Part shown: piece after piece, positions 5,204 through 32,107 of the stretch
Numbering within the stretch: the first letter of the stretch is position 1
Layout: each line of letters starts with the position of its first letter
From: Candidatus Kaiserbacteria bacterium RIFOXYD1_FULL_42_15
GTDB lineage: Bacteria > Patescibacteriota > Minisyncoccia > Phycocordibacterales > UBA918
DNA length: 32,145 nucleotides
Direction of reading: 5' to 3'
Assembly: GCA_001783565.1 (NCBI GenBank)
Contig: MFMT01000042.1
Location: 29,408-61,552 of the forward strand
Position numbers and translations under genes: made by a program
The notes under the pieces: generated by a model
What the model saw: only the letters and a program-made list of their open reading frames with translations
Told to the model about the DNA's origin: nothing
Database searches by the model: none

Positions 5204-5640
5204 AGAAACGACATGGATTGCCACACTGCGGTTCGCAAAGACGGACGGTGACGTTCATCGTCTTTGCGAGGAGGGAGCCCGCAGGCGAGGGACGTGGCAA
5301 TCCAGGGTGACGGGGCGATGTGGACGGACGATGGCGGGCGTGGATTGCCATGCCTCGCAAAGACGGACGGTGGTGACGGACGTTCTTTGTCTTTGCGAGT
5401 GAGAAAAACATACTATGCTTTTCTCACTCGCAAAGACGCATTGGTGTATATACCAAAAATCAATATAGGTCGTCATTGCGAGCAAAGCGCGGCAATCCAG
5501 AGTTGGTGTGACGTCACAGATTGCTTCCCTACAGATGAACGAATGAGTGTCGTAAAAATAAGACGTAACGTAGTGTAGTTTTATTTTTACGACCGAGTGA
5601 GTGAAATCTGTATGTTAATACAGGGACTGTTCAGGTTGTA
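5204..5640. repeat. Cluster of dispersed palindromic repeats with a minus-strand type I remnant
   Basis: The gene gap 5004-5642 holds no supported gene. It contains several half or whole copies of the dispersed repeat: gattgccacactgcggttcgc (5215-5235), ctttgcgaggagggagc...cgtggcaatccag (5260-5305), ggattgccatgcctcgcaaag (5341-5361), an inverted repeat tgagaaaaaca/tgcttttctcactcgcaaag (5397-5437), and cgtcattgcgagcaaagcgc (5471-5504). At 5550-5593 lies another inverted repeat (gtcgtaaaaataa/ttatttttacgac). At 5613-5640 the minus strand reads caacctgaacagtccctgt, the 3' half of a type I core. The small ORFs called here are by-products of the palindromes. Confidence 0.7.
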
Positions 5641-8466: not shown

Positions 8467-8847
8467 ATGGAAATAAAACCCATTACTTTTGATAGACATG
8501 ACCGAGCGGCTTCTTTAATTAAAGAAATAGTAGCCACCTTCATTCAACAAGAGGCAAATCCCAATCCTCTTATTACCGTAACTCACGTTACTGTTTCTCC
8601 AGATTATCGAAAAGTGACAGTGTTTTTTACCACCATCCCTGACGGTCGCGAAGAAGATGCTTTAATTTTCCTCAAGCGCAGTGCTAATGAGATGCGCGGA
8701 TTTGTGAAGAAAAAAAGTAGTTTAAGAATTATTCCCCACTTGGAATTCTCAATAGACTACGGCGAACGACATCGCCAACACATCGATGAGATTGCCCACG
8801 AGATTGAGCACAGTGATGCCGACACCCCTACAGAACCAACCACCTAG
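8467..8847 (+). CDS. rbfA: Ribosome-binding factor A
   Basis: Small KH-fold protein that binds the immature 30S subunit and helps 16S rRNA 5'-end maturation. The region VTHVTVSPDYRKVTVFFTT is the central strand-helix-strand of the family, and LRIIPHLEFSIDYGERHRQHIDEI is its C-terminal block with the usual PxLxFxxD pattern. The track starts at 8437 inside infB; the ATG at 8467 (MEIKPITFDRHDRAASLIKEI) gives the normal N-terminus, with a one-base gap after the infB stop. The length is then 126 residues, normal for the family. infB-rbfA is a classic operon order. The stop codon lies inside a long hairpin. Confidence 0.92.
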   Translation: MEIKPITFDRHDRAASLIKEIVATFIQQEANPNPLITVTHVTVSPDYRKVTVFFTTIPDGREEDALIFLKRSANEMRGFVKKKSSLRIIPHLEFSIDYGERHRQHIDEIAHEIEHSDADTPTEPTT

Positions 8848-8873
8848 GACATCCGATGTCCTAGGTGGTTGGT
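8835..8873 (+). terminator. Perfect hairpin at the end of rbfA
   Basis: An 18-bp perfect stem (accaaccacctaggacat and its complement) closes on a 3-base loop ccg. The rbfA stop codon TAG (8845-8847) is inside the left arm. No U tract follows, so it is either an atypical terminator or an mRNA 3'-end-protecting hairpin. Confidence 0.6.
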
Positions 8874-8891
8874 TGTACAGCTTGATATCTT

Positions 8892-8932: not shown

Positions 8933-9005
8933 GTCCTGGTGGCGAAGTGGTTAACGCTACGGTTTGCAAAACCGTCATTCGTGGGTTCGACTCCCACCCA
9001 GGACT
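8933..9005 (+). tRNA. tRNA-Cys (anticodon GCA)
   Basis: Acceptor GTCCTGG pairs with CCAGGAC. The discriminator is T, as is standard for Cys. The anticodon arm ACGGT-TTGCAAA-ACCGT gives GCA at 8966-8968. T stem GTGGG/CCCAC with loop TTCGACT. CCA is not encoded; the next bases are CA. Confidence 0.96.
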
Positions 9006-9190
9006 CATTTATATAAAAACGTACATTCGTACGTTTTTATATAAATGAGTCCTGGGAGTTGTGTGCCTGCGCACACAACGTTGGGAATCGAACAGCGGAG
9101 TTATGTTTTCTCCTCTTCCCTAGAGGAGAAAACAGACGAGCTGCGTCCAGCGTTCTTATGAGCGTCAGCAAATTAGAAAAAGAGGGACGA
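9006..9190 (+). repeat. tRNA-tail element after tRNA-Cys (type II core)
   Basis: A perfect 15-bp hairpin (tatataaaaacgtac/gtacgtttttatata, 9010-9043) follows the tRNA. Then comes the reverse complement of the tRNA tail, aatgagtcctggga, split after GGGA by the hairpin gttgtgtgc/gcacacaac (9058-9080), continuing ttgggaatcgaac. A type II core follows (agcggagttatgt, hairpin ttttctcctct/agaggagaaaa, gacgagctgcgtcc ... ggac). No clear direct tail copy follows; gacgatttccacc at 9187-9199 may be a decayed one. Confidence 0.7.
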
Positions 9191-9329: not shown

Positions 9330-9478
9330 CAATGTAATAGTACGTCAGATTTTTATCTGGCGTACTATTACATTTGCCCCAGGGACTTGAAGAGGTTGCC
9401 TGCTAGATTATGAGCTAGCGAAATAATCTAGCGACAACCTGTACTGAACTCGTAGAGTTCAAGTCCCGCTCCCGGCAC
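9330..9478 (+). repeat. tRNA-tail element 1 after tRNA-Leu(TAA) (type I core)
   Basis: A long hairpin aatgtaatagtacg/cgtactattacatt (9331-9374) is followed by a partial inverted tail (agggacttgaa), a type I core (aggttgc, hairpin gctagattat/ataatctagc, gacaacct, gtactgaactcgtagagttc) and a direct tail copy at 9457-9478 identical to the tRNA tail (gttcaagtcccgctcccggc). Confidence 0.8.
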
Positions 9479-9674
9479 AAATTAAAAACTATCATTCTTG
9501 AGAGTTTTTAATTTGTGCCGGGAAGAAAGCAAACTGCTTTGCTTTCGGGCGGGACTTGAAAGGCGGAGCGACGTGAGTTTACGAACAAGCGAGCCAGGGT
9601 CGTGAGCGATATATTTTTAAGGAGTTCACGACTATAAAAATAATCGACTCCTGACCAAGTCCCGCTCCCGGCAC
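9479..9674 (+). repeat. tRNA-tail element 2 after tRNA-Leu(TAA) (type II core)
   Basis: A hairpin (aaattaaaaact/agtttttaattt) is followed by the inverted tail gtgccggga, a hairpin insert agaaagcaaa...tttgctttc, and the rest of the inverted tail (ggcgggacttgaa). Then a type II core: aggcggagcgacgtgag, a short hairpin, gcgagccagggtcgtgag, an A/T-rich stem, and ctgacc. A second tail copy (ccaagtcccgctcccggcac) lies at 9655-9674. Confidence 0.78.
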
Positions 9675-10189: not shown

Positions 10190-10339
10190 CAAAAGAAAAA
10201 CCGTCCCGCAAGGGCGGTTTTTTGACTGCGCGAGAAGTAGTGTGTGGGACACACTACGGGAGGACTTGAAGAGGTTGCCAGCTCTTTTGAAAAAAGAGCG
10301 ACAACCTGTACTGAACTCGTAGAGTTCAAGTCCTCTCTC
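10190..10339 (+). repeat. tRNA-tail element after tRNA-Leu(TAG) (type I core)
   Basis: The terminator hairpin aaaaaccgtcccgcaagggcggtttttt is followed by the inverted tail tgcgcgaga, a hairpin insert gtagtgtgt/acacactac, and gaggacttgaa. A type I core follows that nearly matches the one behind tRNA-Leu(TAA): aggttgcc, hairpin agctcttttg/aaaaagagc, gacaacctgtactgaactcg. A direct tail copy, gttcaagtcctctctc (10324-10339), is then cut off where the yigZ promoter begins. Confidence 0.78.
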
Positions 10340-10847: not shown

Positions 10848-11015
10848 CACGTCTTTGCGAGTGAGAAAGTCCAGTGGACTTTCGCAAGACCTTGCCAGCT
10901 CTTTTGTAAAAAGAGCGACAAGGTGTACAGTCCCTGTTAAGGGAAAGCGCGGCAATCCACGTCCATCATCGTGTTCGTCTTCGCGAGTCGCAACGTGGCG
11001 ATCCACTTCTTCACC
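10848..11015. repeat. Dispersed repeat carrying a type I core
   Basis: Left flank cgtctttgcgag, hairpin gagaaagtccagtggactttc, then gcaagaccttgcc, inner hairpin agctcttttgtaaaaagagc, gacaaggtgtacag and tccctgttaaggga (the type I core). The right flank is gcgcggcaatccacg, then another half repeat cttcgcgagtcgcaacgtggcgatcca. The same core that follows tRNA-Leu is thus seen inside the dispersed repeat. No gene is supported in 10818-11123. Confidence 0.78.
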
Positions 11016-14378: not shown

Positions 14379-14642
14379 GAAGACGTGGATTGCTTCGCGC
14401 GACTCGCAAAGACGTTTCACTTTGTGTTCGTCTTCGCGAGGAGTGGAGTGGCAACGTGAAAAAGTGATTCAATATCACTTTGCAAGACTAGTTGAGCAGG
14501 TTTGTGAGTGAAACGAAACAAACTGGCCAACTAGTGGACAGTCCCTGTAAGGGAATGACGTGGCGATCCAGGGTGGCATGACGAACGATGTGGATTGCCA
14601 CGTTGCGACTCGCCTGTCTGCGCAGGCAGACAAAGACGGAGG
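14379..14642. repeat. Dispersed repeats with a type I core between the VirB2-like genes
   Basis: The gap 14304-14657 is filled by: acgtggattgc...ctcgcaaagacg (14380-14414); cgtcttcgcgag (14430-14441); a type I core with hairpin gtgaaaaagtgattcaatatcact, gcaagactagttg, inner hairpin aggtttgt/acaaactgg, caactagtggacag and tccctgtaaggga (about 14457-14553); the right flank gacgtggcgatccag; and ggattgccacgttgcgactcgc with the inserted hairpin ctgtctgcgcaggcag before acaaagacg (14591-14639). No gene is supported here. Confidence 0.75.
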
Positions 14643-17266: not shown

Positions 17267-17428
17267 ACGTGGATTGCTTCGTTGCGACTCGCAAAGACGT
17301 TTCACTTTGTGTTCGTCTTCGCGAGGAGCGGAGTGGCAACGGAGTGACGTGGCGATCCAGGGTGGCATGACGAACGATTTGGATTGCCACGTTGCGACTC
17401 GCCTGTCTGCGCAGGCAGGCAAAGACGA
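17267..17428. repeat. Dispersed palindromic repeats downstream of gyrA
   Basis: Copies in order: acgtggattgcttcgttgcgactcgcaaagacg (17267-17299), cgtcttcgcgag...gacgtggcgatccag (17313-17361), and ggattgccacgttgcgactcgc with the hairpin ctgtctgcgcaggcag inserted before gcaaagacg (17381-17428). The layout is almost the same as at 14380-14640 but without a type I core, so the two sites show the occupied and empty states. The sequence 17185-17266 has no supported feature. Confidence 0.75.
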
Positions 17429-26100: not shown

Positions 26101-26610
26101 CGTGAAAAAGTGACTCAATGTTGTGTAAAATAATAAGCGTAGCGACTATATTTTTCATACATAGAATTTTTTATCCTTAATAAAAATTCTTGCACTTTGC
26201 AGCCAACTTGAGCTGGTTTGTACCCACCTTTAGCTGCGAGCAAAGCGTGGCAGGAAATAAAATAGCCAATGAGTGGACAGTCCCTGTTAAGGTGAGAAAT
26301 GTCTGGGTGAGAAAGTCCAGTGGACTTTCTCAAGAGGTTGCCTACTATTTTGCAAAAATAGCGTCAACCTGAACAGCTTCTGTATAGAAGACATTTCGCA
26401 GCCACATTGAGCTAGTTTTACCCACCTTTAGCTGCGAGCGAAGCGTGGCAGGAAATAAAGTAGCCAATGAGTGGACAGTCCCTGTTAAGGTGAGAAAAGC
26501 ATGGGATGCTTTTCGCAAGACTCATTGAGGGATTTTGTGAGTGCAACTAAACAAAATACCCAATGAGTGGACAGTCCCTGTAAGGGAGCAACGTGGTGAT
26601 CCAGGATAAT
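26101..26610. repeat. Composite of type I cores with a tandem duplication
   Basis: Two similar blocks of about 100 bp, 199 bp apart (26199 and 26398), read gcagcca...ttgagct(g/a)gttt...acccacctttagctgcgagc and end gccaatgagtggacagtccctgttaagg. Between them is a type I core like that after tRNA-Leu (aagaggttgcctactatttt...gcgtcaacctgaacagcttc). After the second comes hairpin gagaaaagcatgggatgctttt, then gcaagactcattgag...ccaatgagtggacagtccctgtaaggga and the flank caacgtggtgatccagg. Stem sequences differ while pairing is kept. Confidence 0.75.
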
Positions 26611-31951: not shown

Positions 31952-32107
31952 CAGTGAATGAAATGAACGAAGGAAGAGGAGGTTGCAGCATTTTGAAAAA
32001 ATGCGTAGCAAGATTTGAAGCCCGATTGAGCTAGATTATGAGCTTGCGAAATAATCTAGCCAATTGGGGTACTGAACATGTAATGTTCAAATCCCTCCTC
32101 TTCCGCA
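31952..32107 (+). repeat. tRNA-tail element after tRNA-Ser (type I core)
   Basis: The inverted tail ggaagagga is split by a hairpin (ttgcagcatttt/aaaatgcgtagcaa) and continues gatttgaa. The type I core is almost the same as the one behind tRNA-Tyr element 1: gcccgattgagct, hairpin agattat/ataatct, ccaattggggtactgaac, atgtaatgttc. A direct tail copy (gttcaaatccctcctcttcc) lies at 32085-32107. There is no strong terminator directly after the tRNA, unlike at the other five loci. Confidence 0.82.

Follow-up and report, generated by a model that had tools for sequence, protein, structure and literature searches.

A gene-less three-hairpin element of Paceibacteria that probably moves as single-stranded DNA with copy-specific guides

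Work on IS608 indicates that its cleavage sites are read by base pairing with guide sequences 5′ of each hairpin and not by the transposase; the target is retained in the left flank, and resetting the guide retargets the element (PMC5934647). Targeting is extended when 8 nt are added beyond the hairpin, and C is preferred at position +1 (PMC5934647). Hitherto the guide of IS608 and its relatives has been a fixed 4-nt sequence, with extension achieved by engineering only. REP and REPIN sequences, which are mobilised by TnpAREP (RAYT), are small non-coding hairpins present in many copies per genome; TnpAREP cleaves at CT or CA, selected by a GTAG foot (PMC8266576). For a further class, the CGTC-tagged palindromic repeats, no transposase is known (PMC3733652).

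The window analysed here is a stretch of 32,145 nt from Candidatus Kaiserbacteria bacterium RIFOXYD1_FULL_42_15, whose genome assembly comprises 757 kb in 43 contigs; all coordinates refer to its top (+) strand. At 10850–10961 lies a palindromic repeat (host REP; CGTC...CCA) that resembles the CGTC-tagged class and is here the target, not the element. Its arms, CGTCTTTGCGAG and CGCGGCAATCCACG, are split by an insert at 10862–10942. The left arm (CGTCTTTGCGAG, 10850–10861) forms the left flank of the target and ends in the G of a G^NN junction, and the right flank (GAAAGCGCGGCAATCCACG, 10943–10961) consists of the guide-paired GA followed by the right REP arm AAGCGCGGCAATCCACG; the flanks of the insert are thus the imperfectly inverted arms of one dispersed palindrome. 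An unoccupied REP of the same kind can be read directly downstream (10976–11006), and 52 unoccupied copies occur in the loci of the source genome that surround matches to the element.

The insert itself (TGAGAAAGTCCAGTGGACTTTCGCAAGACCTTGCC..GACAAGGTGTACAGTCCCTGTTAAGG, beginning with TGAG and ending with CTGTTAAG plus a variable base X) is one copy of a gene-less mobile DNA element of ∼81–105 nt with three hairpins, found in Paceibacteria (Patescibacteria). Its DNA fold has an energy of −22.6 kcal/mol (z = −6.65, 0 of 200 shuffles). Hairpin A occupies 10862–10886, with its foot extended by TG/CA (TGAGAAAGTCC-AGT-GGACTTTCGCA). Hairpin B (10890–10923) has an outer stem CCTTG/CAAGG, an inner stem GCTCTTTT/AAAAGAGC and a GTA triloop of the GNA type, and all of its pairs covary. 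There follows an inverted repeat, ACAG-TCC-CTGT (10927–10937), which in the absence of the target can display the guide triplet TCC (10931–10933) in a triloop. This triplet is complementary to GGA at 10942–10944, and the pairing closes hairpin C across the junction (10931–10944; TCC-CT-GTTA-AG-G|GA, the final GA being target). No open reading frame is present within the element, and an Rfam covariance-model search of the window gave no family over it.

The limits of the element are set by empty sites of sibling copies, for which the two flanks of a copy were joined and the product was searched against the loci around matches. Exact empty sites were recovered for a nested copy, L020 (L242:444-517, 74/74 nt), and for a REP copy, L016 (L003:2868-2904, 37/37 nt), with further ones for copies at GCGAG^GAATGAGC and GCGAG^TGAGAAAG. 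They show that insertion at G^NN is exact and without target duplication, and fix the inserted piece as TGAG-A-GCAAGA-B-ACAG-NNX'-CTGTAAG-X, in which NN can pair with the target dinucleotide and X' with X. The core motif tccc...ggga of a preliminary description of this DNA is present as given, except that the GA of GGGA belongs to the target. The base preceding the junction on the top strand is G in 36/40 copies of the source genome and 81/98 copies elsewhere. As the element ends, TGAG... and ...CTGTAAGX, are not inverted repeats, and there is no target-site duplication, a DDE-type MITE was rejected. Long target duplications were likewise discarded; they are hinted at by doubled tRNA tails and by one copy lying where a beta-glucosidase-like gene begins (L071 360–560, G009), flanked by a direct repeat of ∼40–50 nt, in contrast to the duplication-free exact empty sites.

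About 20 close copies are found in the source genome by blastn. A covariance model, R1, built from an alignment of 23 diverse copies, matches the element at 10861–10944 (E = 1e-20) and gives 84 copies in the source genome at E-values up to 0.1; across the host order it matches 126/297 genomes and 84/165 genera. In the 23-copy alignment, which was not fitted to the structure, 21/28 pairs show changes on both sides. In an alignment of 126 distinct matches, which was so fitted, double changes occur in 28/28 pairs, and the covariation score is 0.565; shuffled partners score 0.152 and slid partners no more than 0.104. Only ∼3% of paired cells are G-U, and hairpins B and C carry GNA triloops, features that suit DNA better than RNA. 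A scan of 85,000 genomes with the pattern of the 3′ end matched more than 110 stretches, nearly all from Patescibacteria; viral contigs scanned with the conserved 3′ pattern gave no match. When we looked for autonomous versions, in which two half elements would enclose a gene, no convincing orphan halves emerged. Our searches of the open-access literature turned up no account of the element from Patescibacteria.

Other copies in the window occupy a variety of sites. A type II copy, with a larger hairpin B and guide TCC, lies in a REP at CAACG^GAATGACG (14457–14552), with an empty counterpart at 17302–17381 (96% over 80 nt); a second, also with guide TCC, has the target GAGCAACGTGG (26491–26585); and a copy with guide CTT is nested inside hairpin A of another copy (26308–26388; TGTCTGGG^AGACATTT). 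At L006, L008 and L012, copies are inserted precisely at another copy's left end (G^TGAG), giving head-to-tail tandems. A different hairpin element (ACAGATGAACGAATGAGTGTCGTAAAAATAAGACG...), seen at 5520–5630 of the window and at L014, has entered one copy at the apex of its hairpin C and is found in REPs at other places.

Among 93 distinct matches in named genomes, 80 have perfect 3-nt pairing between guide and target, with 18 different guide triplets represented; shuffling gives a mean of 8.3 and a maximum of 20 (1000 shuffles), and sliding the pairing by 1–5 nt leaves 0, 3, 1, 1 and 6 matches. This test is unbiased, since the pattern that defined the set (CAASSTGWACAGNNNCTGTAAG) left both guide and target free. 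Copies whose bodies are 93–98% identical have different guides, each fitting its own target: L020 and L208, 98% identical, have guide/target CTT/AAG and TTC/GAA, and near-identical bodies in G061 bear CTC/GAG and AAC/GTT. In the source genome, TC-guided copies at GCGAG stand on GA in 9/10 cases, whereas only 18/52 unoccupied REPs have GA there (Fisher p = 0.0016). This enrichment, together with the different guides on near-identical bodies, argues that guide pairing directs the choice of target, beyond any stem kept after insertion.

The reading that we favour, with a probability of roughly 0.6 for the whole including the guides, is that of a non-autonomous transposon that moves as a single strand, has DNA guides specific to each copy and operates in the manner of IS200/IS605 elements, though it is not demonstrably one of them. 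The element would move as folded single-stranded DNA. Its bottom strand can be laid out as an IS200/IS605 end, in which the flank, with the complement of the target dinucleotide as putative C_L, is followed by a 7-nt loop, the guide (G_L) and hairpin B in the position of IP_L; at the opposite end, the foot of hairpin A may pair as G_R does with C_R. The ACAG-NNN-CTGT motif (ACAGNNNCTGT) is present in 23/23 aligned copies and in 99/128 model matches, the latter set being partly pattern-selected. Held in this triloop the free guide gives −1.4 to −1.9 kcal/mol, compared with −3.4 to −5.0 when paired with the target. These energies suggest a two-state guide, which would sit in the ACAG/CTGT stem loop when free and re-pair into hairpin C on meeting its target.

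With the IS200/IS605 family, and IS608 in particular, the element shares the lack of target-site duplication, subterminal hairpins near both ends (A and B/C), a site complementary to a short internal guide 5′ of a hairpin, as judged from sequence comparison, and a target kept in the flank (PMC5934647). The G that precedes the junction on the top strand corresponds to C at position +1 on the bottom strand of the target, as in IS608 (PMC5934647), and the commonest bottom-strand target dinucleotide, CT, is a TnpAREP site (PMC8266576). It differs from IS200/IS605 elements in having no encoded or flanking Y1 HUH transposase gene, a third hairpin, a copy-variable guide beside a GTA mini-hairpin and, with its 18 guide triplets, no single fixed target such as a TTAC-like tetranucleotide; many carriers also have no Y1 gene. 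From REP/RAYT systems it differs in the lack of a GTAG (or GT[AG]G) foot and of a linked RAYT gene, and again in the variable guide. IS608 provides a precedent for the guide logic; to our knowledge there is none for guides that differ between copies, for a three-hairpin form without a gene or for the tRNA arms described below. If this reading is correct, Paceibacteria hold a natural, diversified form of DNA-guided targeting in which 18 guides or more are in use and some copies have long arms specific to a tRNA; the element would also account for much of their repeated intergenic DNA and repeated tRNA tails. The copies also supply natural guide-target pairs with which to test how single-strand transposition is programmed.

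With no transposase accompanying the element, the same reading raises the question of what enzyme mobilises it. The candidate is an HUH-type single-strand transposase, IS200-like or TnpAREP/RAYT-like, that would act in trans or has since been lost. Y1 genes are enriched in carriers (93/126 compared with 89/171 genomes; OR 2.6, p = 2e-4). The source genome itself encodes five Y1 proteins as well as an Xer-type recombinase. PF01797 is nevertheless absent from 18/55 genomes having at least 5 copies, and 16 of those 18 (5–15 copies) also have no match to a Patescibacteria RAYT profile, so that Y1 is undetectable in them; loss of the enzyme after the element had spread could explain such genomes. 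No element was found within 1.5 kb of 43 Y1 genes, the only recurrent neighbour genes around the named loci are housekeeping families, and TnpB is absent from most carriers. The orientation of the element is weakly biased: the top strand is G-rich in 52/82 non-tRNA-type copies (p = 0.02). The sign is not the one predicted for entry of the bottom strand into the lagging-strand template, the preferred substrate of the IS200/IS605 family, whose members also form a single-stranded circular intermediate. RAYT-like genes at L060, L062 and L064 are flanked by short palindromes of their own (CCTAGGACATCSGATGTCCTAGG; CTTAGGGGTTTAACCCCTAAG), one of which stands alone at 8846–8876 of the window.

Insertion of the same mobile single-stranded hairpin by an Xer-type tyrosine recombinase of the host, in which 2–3 bp beside the cut would stabilise strand exchange and so look like a guide, would dispense with a dedicated enzyme, given that a tyrosine recombinase is present in 17/17 carriers tested and is often the only one. 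Integron attC sites and the CTX attP site provide precedents: there too a folded single strand is exchanged without duplication and with few base pairs at the exchange point, and insertion at G^ without duplication fits. Tyrosine recombinases are, however, also present in 14/14 control genomes, so their presence in carriers says little, and the targets of the element differ from recombinase sites in having no recognisable arm sites, only G^NN. We consider this explanation rather unlikely.

Hairpin C could, alternatively, be no guide at all, being a structural stem of a functional RNA or DNA element whose complementarity with the flank is kept by selection after insertion. At the dinucleotide paired with the guide, some targets do differ from their empty paralogues (CG compared with TG in L006 and L008, GG compared with TG in L021) and pair with the element all the same, implying that part of the pairing may arise or persist after insertion. 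Similarly, in the tRNA copies L127, L146 and L169 the stem is retained with paired bases other than those of the original tail, which points to a contribution from selection on the hairpin stem itself. As the whole explanation this is improbable: the paired dinucleotide is already present before insertion in the exact empty sites, and TC-guided copies favour GA-bearing REPs.

The preliminary description held that the core recognises a palindrome or hairpin-forming target as a structure. Many copies in the source genome do occupy REPs or have entered another copy at the apex of its hairpin A, and within the window inverted flanks enclose the core at both kinds of target, as that description stated. 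Its proposed check, that the flanks should always be mutually inverted, fails on further copies that have no inverted flanks. Non-tRNA targets have no more hairpin potential at the junction than the intergenic background (73 copies in named genomes; mean percentile 0.526 among intergenic positions from the respective loci, p = 0.46). Complementarity between left and right flanks of 20 nt is at most marginally higher than in shuffled pairings (−5.07 compared with −4.82, n = 98), and a preference for palindrome apices was not found outside the repeats of the source genome. Structural recognition of palindromes is thus largely refuted, and we regard it as very improbable. The choice of target looks guide-paired, as in IS608, and not a matter of palindrome recognition. 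Palindromes are often occupied in the source genome because they are numerous and contain G^NN sites; they are best explained as incidental, the recurring feature being G^NN with NN complementary to the element triplet. A retro-type element, in which a small structured RNA would be reverse-spliced or target-primed with a guide resembling intron-exon pairing, draws on the strong conserved structure and a slight co-orientation with genes, but is hardly credible given that no reverse transcriptase was found in the source genome or in 12 other carriers of 17 tested, that there is no Rfam match, and that G-U pairs are few and the GNA loops are of the DNA type.

The element is also found behind tRNA genes. 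Among 105 distinct tRNAs in the loci around matches, 18 have downstream, within 420 nt, an inverted 9-mer of their own tail and, later, a direct 10-mer of it, compared with 0/2064 pairings when the tails of other tRNAs are used. The inverted arm is part of the element unit and copies the adjacent tRNA tail. In the window, tRNA-linked type II copies stand behind tRNA-Tyr (261–331) and tRNA-Ser(cga) (31993–32087), a copy lies within the third tRNA-Tyr unit (660–754), and another follows tRNA-Leu(taa) (9344–9459). Adjacent to tRNA-Leu(tag), the inverted tail GAGGACTTGAA (10260–10270), a putative extended guide, is complementary to the 3′ tail of that tRNA; it is followed by a type I core (10271–10324) and a direct copy of the tail (10325–10339). 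The view of the preliminary description that one core occurs in both tRNA tails (10271–10324; L028, L030 and L078) and dispersed REPs is borne out, as is its corollary: the presence of the same core family in both settings supports the conclusion that a tRNA is not in itself the target.

The type I core is shared by loci with arms for different tRNAs (L028, L030, L078). On the bottom strand the tRNA arm lies immediately beyond hairpin B, from where it could pair with the target beside the cut; an extra arm of at least 9–11 nt, complementary to the tRNA tail, would lengthen the target pairing. Engineered IS608 likewise has extra pairing beyond the left-end hairpin with the target upstream of the cut (PMC5934647), whereas in the tRNA-linked copies such an extension of at least 9–11 nt is natural and matched to each tRNA. 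How an arm of ∼20 nt comes to match each tRNA is most simply imagined as copying from the target. In its full form, in which the element rewrites its own guide at each insertion with the target as template and a host enzyme as catalyst, including tail-length arms on both sides of hairpin A in tRNA copies, this idea is doubtful. Were it true, identical cores would become programmed for different tRNAs, a distinct mode of transposition.

Several further features accompany the tRNA genes. Unrelated cores (with ..GGCGGGGTCGAGAGTACTTAGTAGAATTT..CTCGTGACC) occur in the same tRNA-tail framework at 417–513, 9070–9170 and 9555–9650 of the window and at L115, L151, L153 and L165, indicating that at least two element families use inverted and direct tRNA tails. 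Copies at L097, L163, L167, L185 and L328 lie directly 3′ of a sequence like a tRNA D-arm (GTAGCTCAGCTGGTAGAG), apparently in tRNA genes or their remnants. Behind tRNA-Cys (8997–9056) an inverted repeat of 28 perfectly matched bp, closed by a 4-nt loop, spans the tRNA tail and terminator and back, and resembles a product of fold-back synthesis. Behind the tRNA-Tyr array (866–1348), two small open reading frames appear by eye to be a toxin-antitoxin pair of the Phd/YefM-RelE type.
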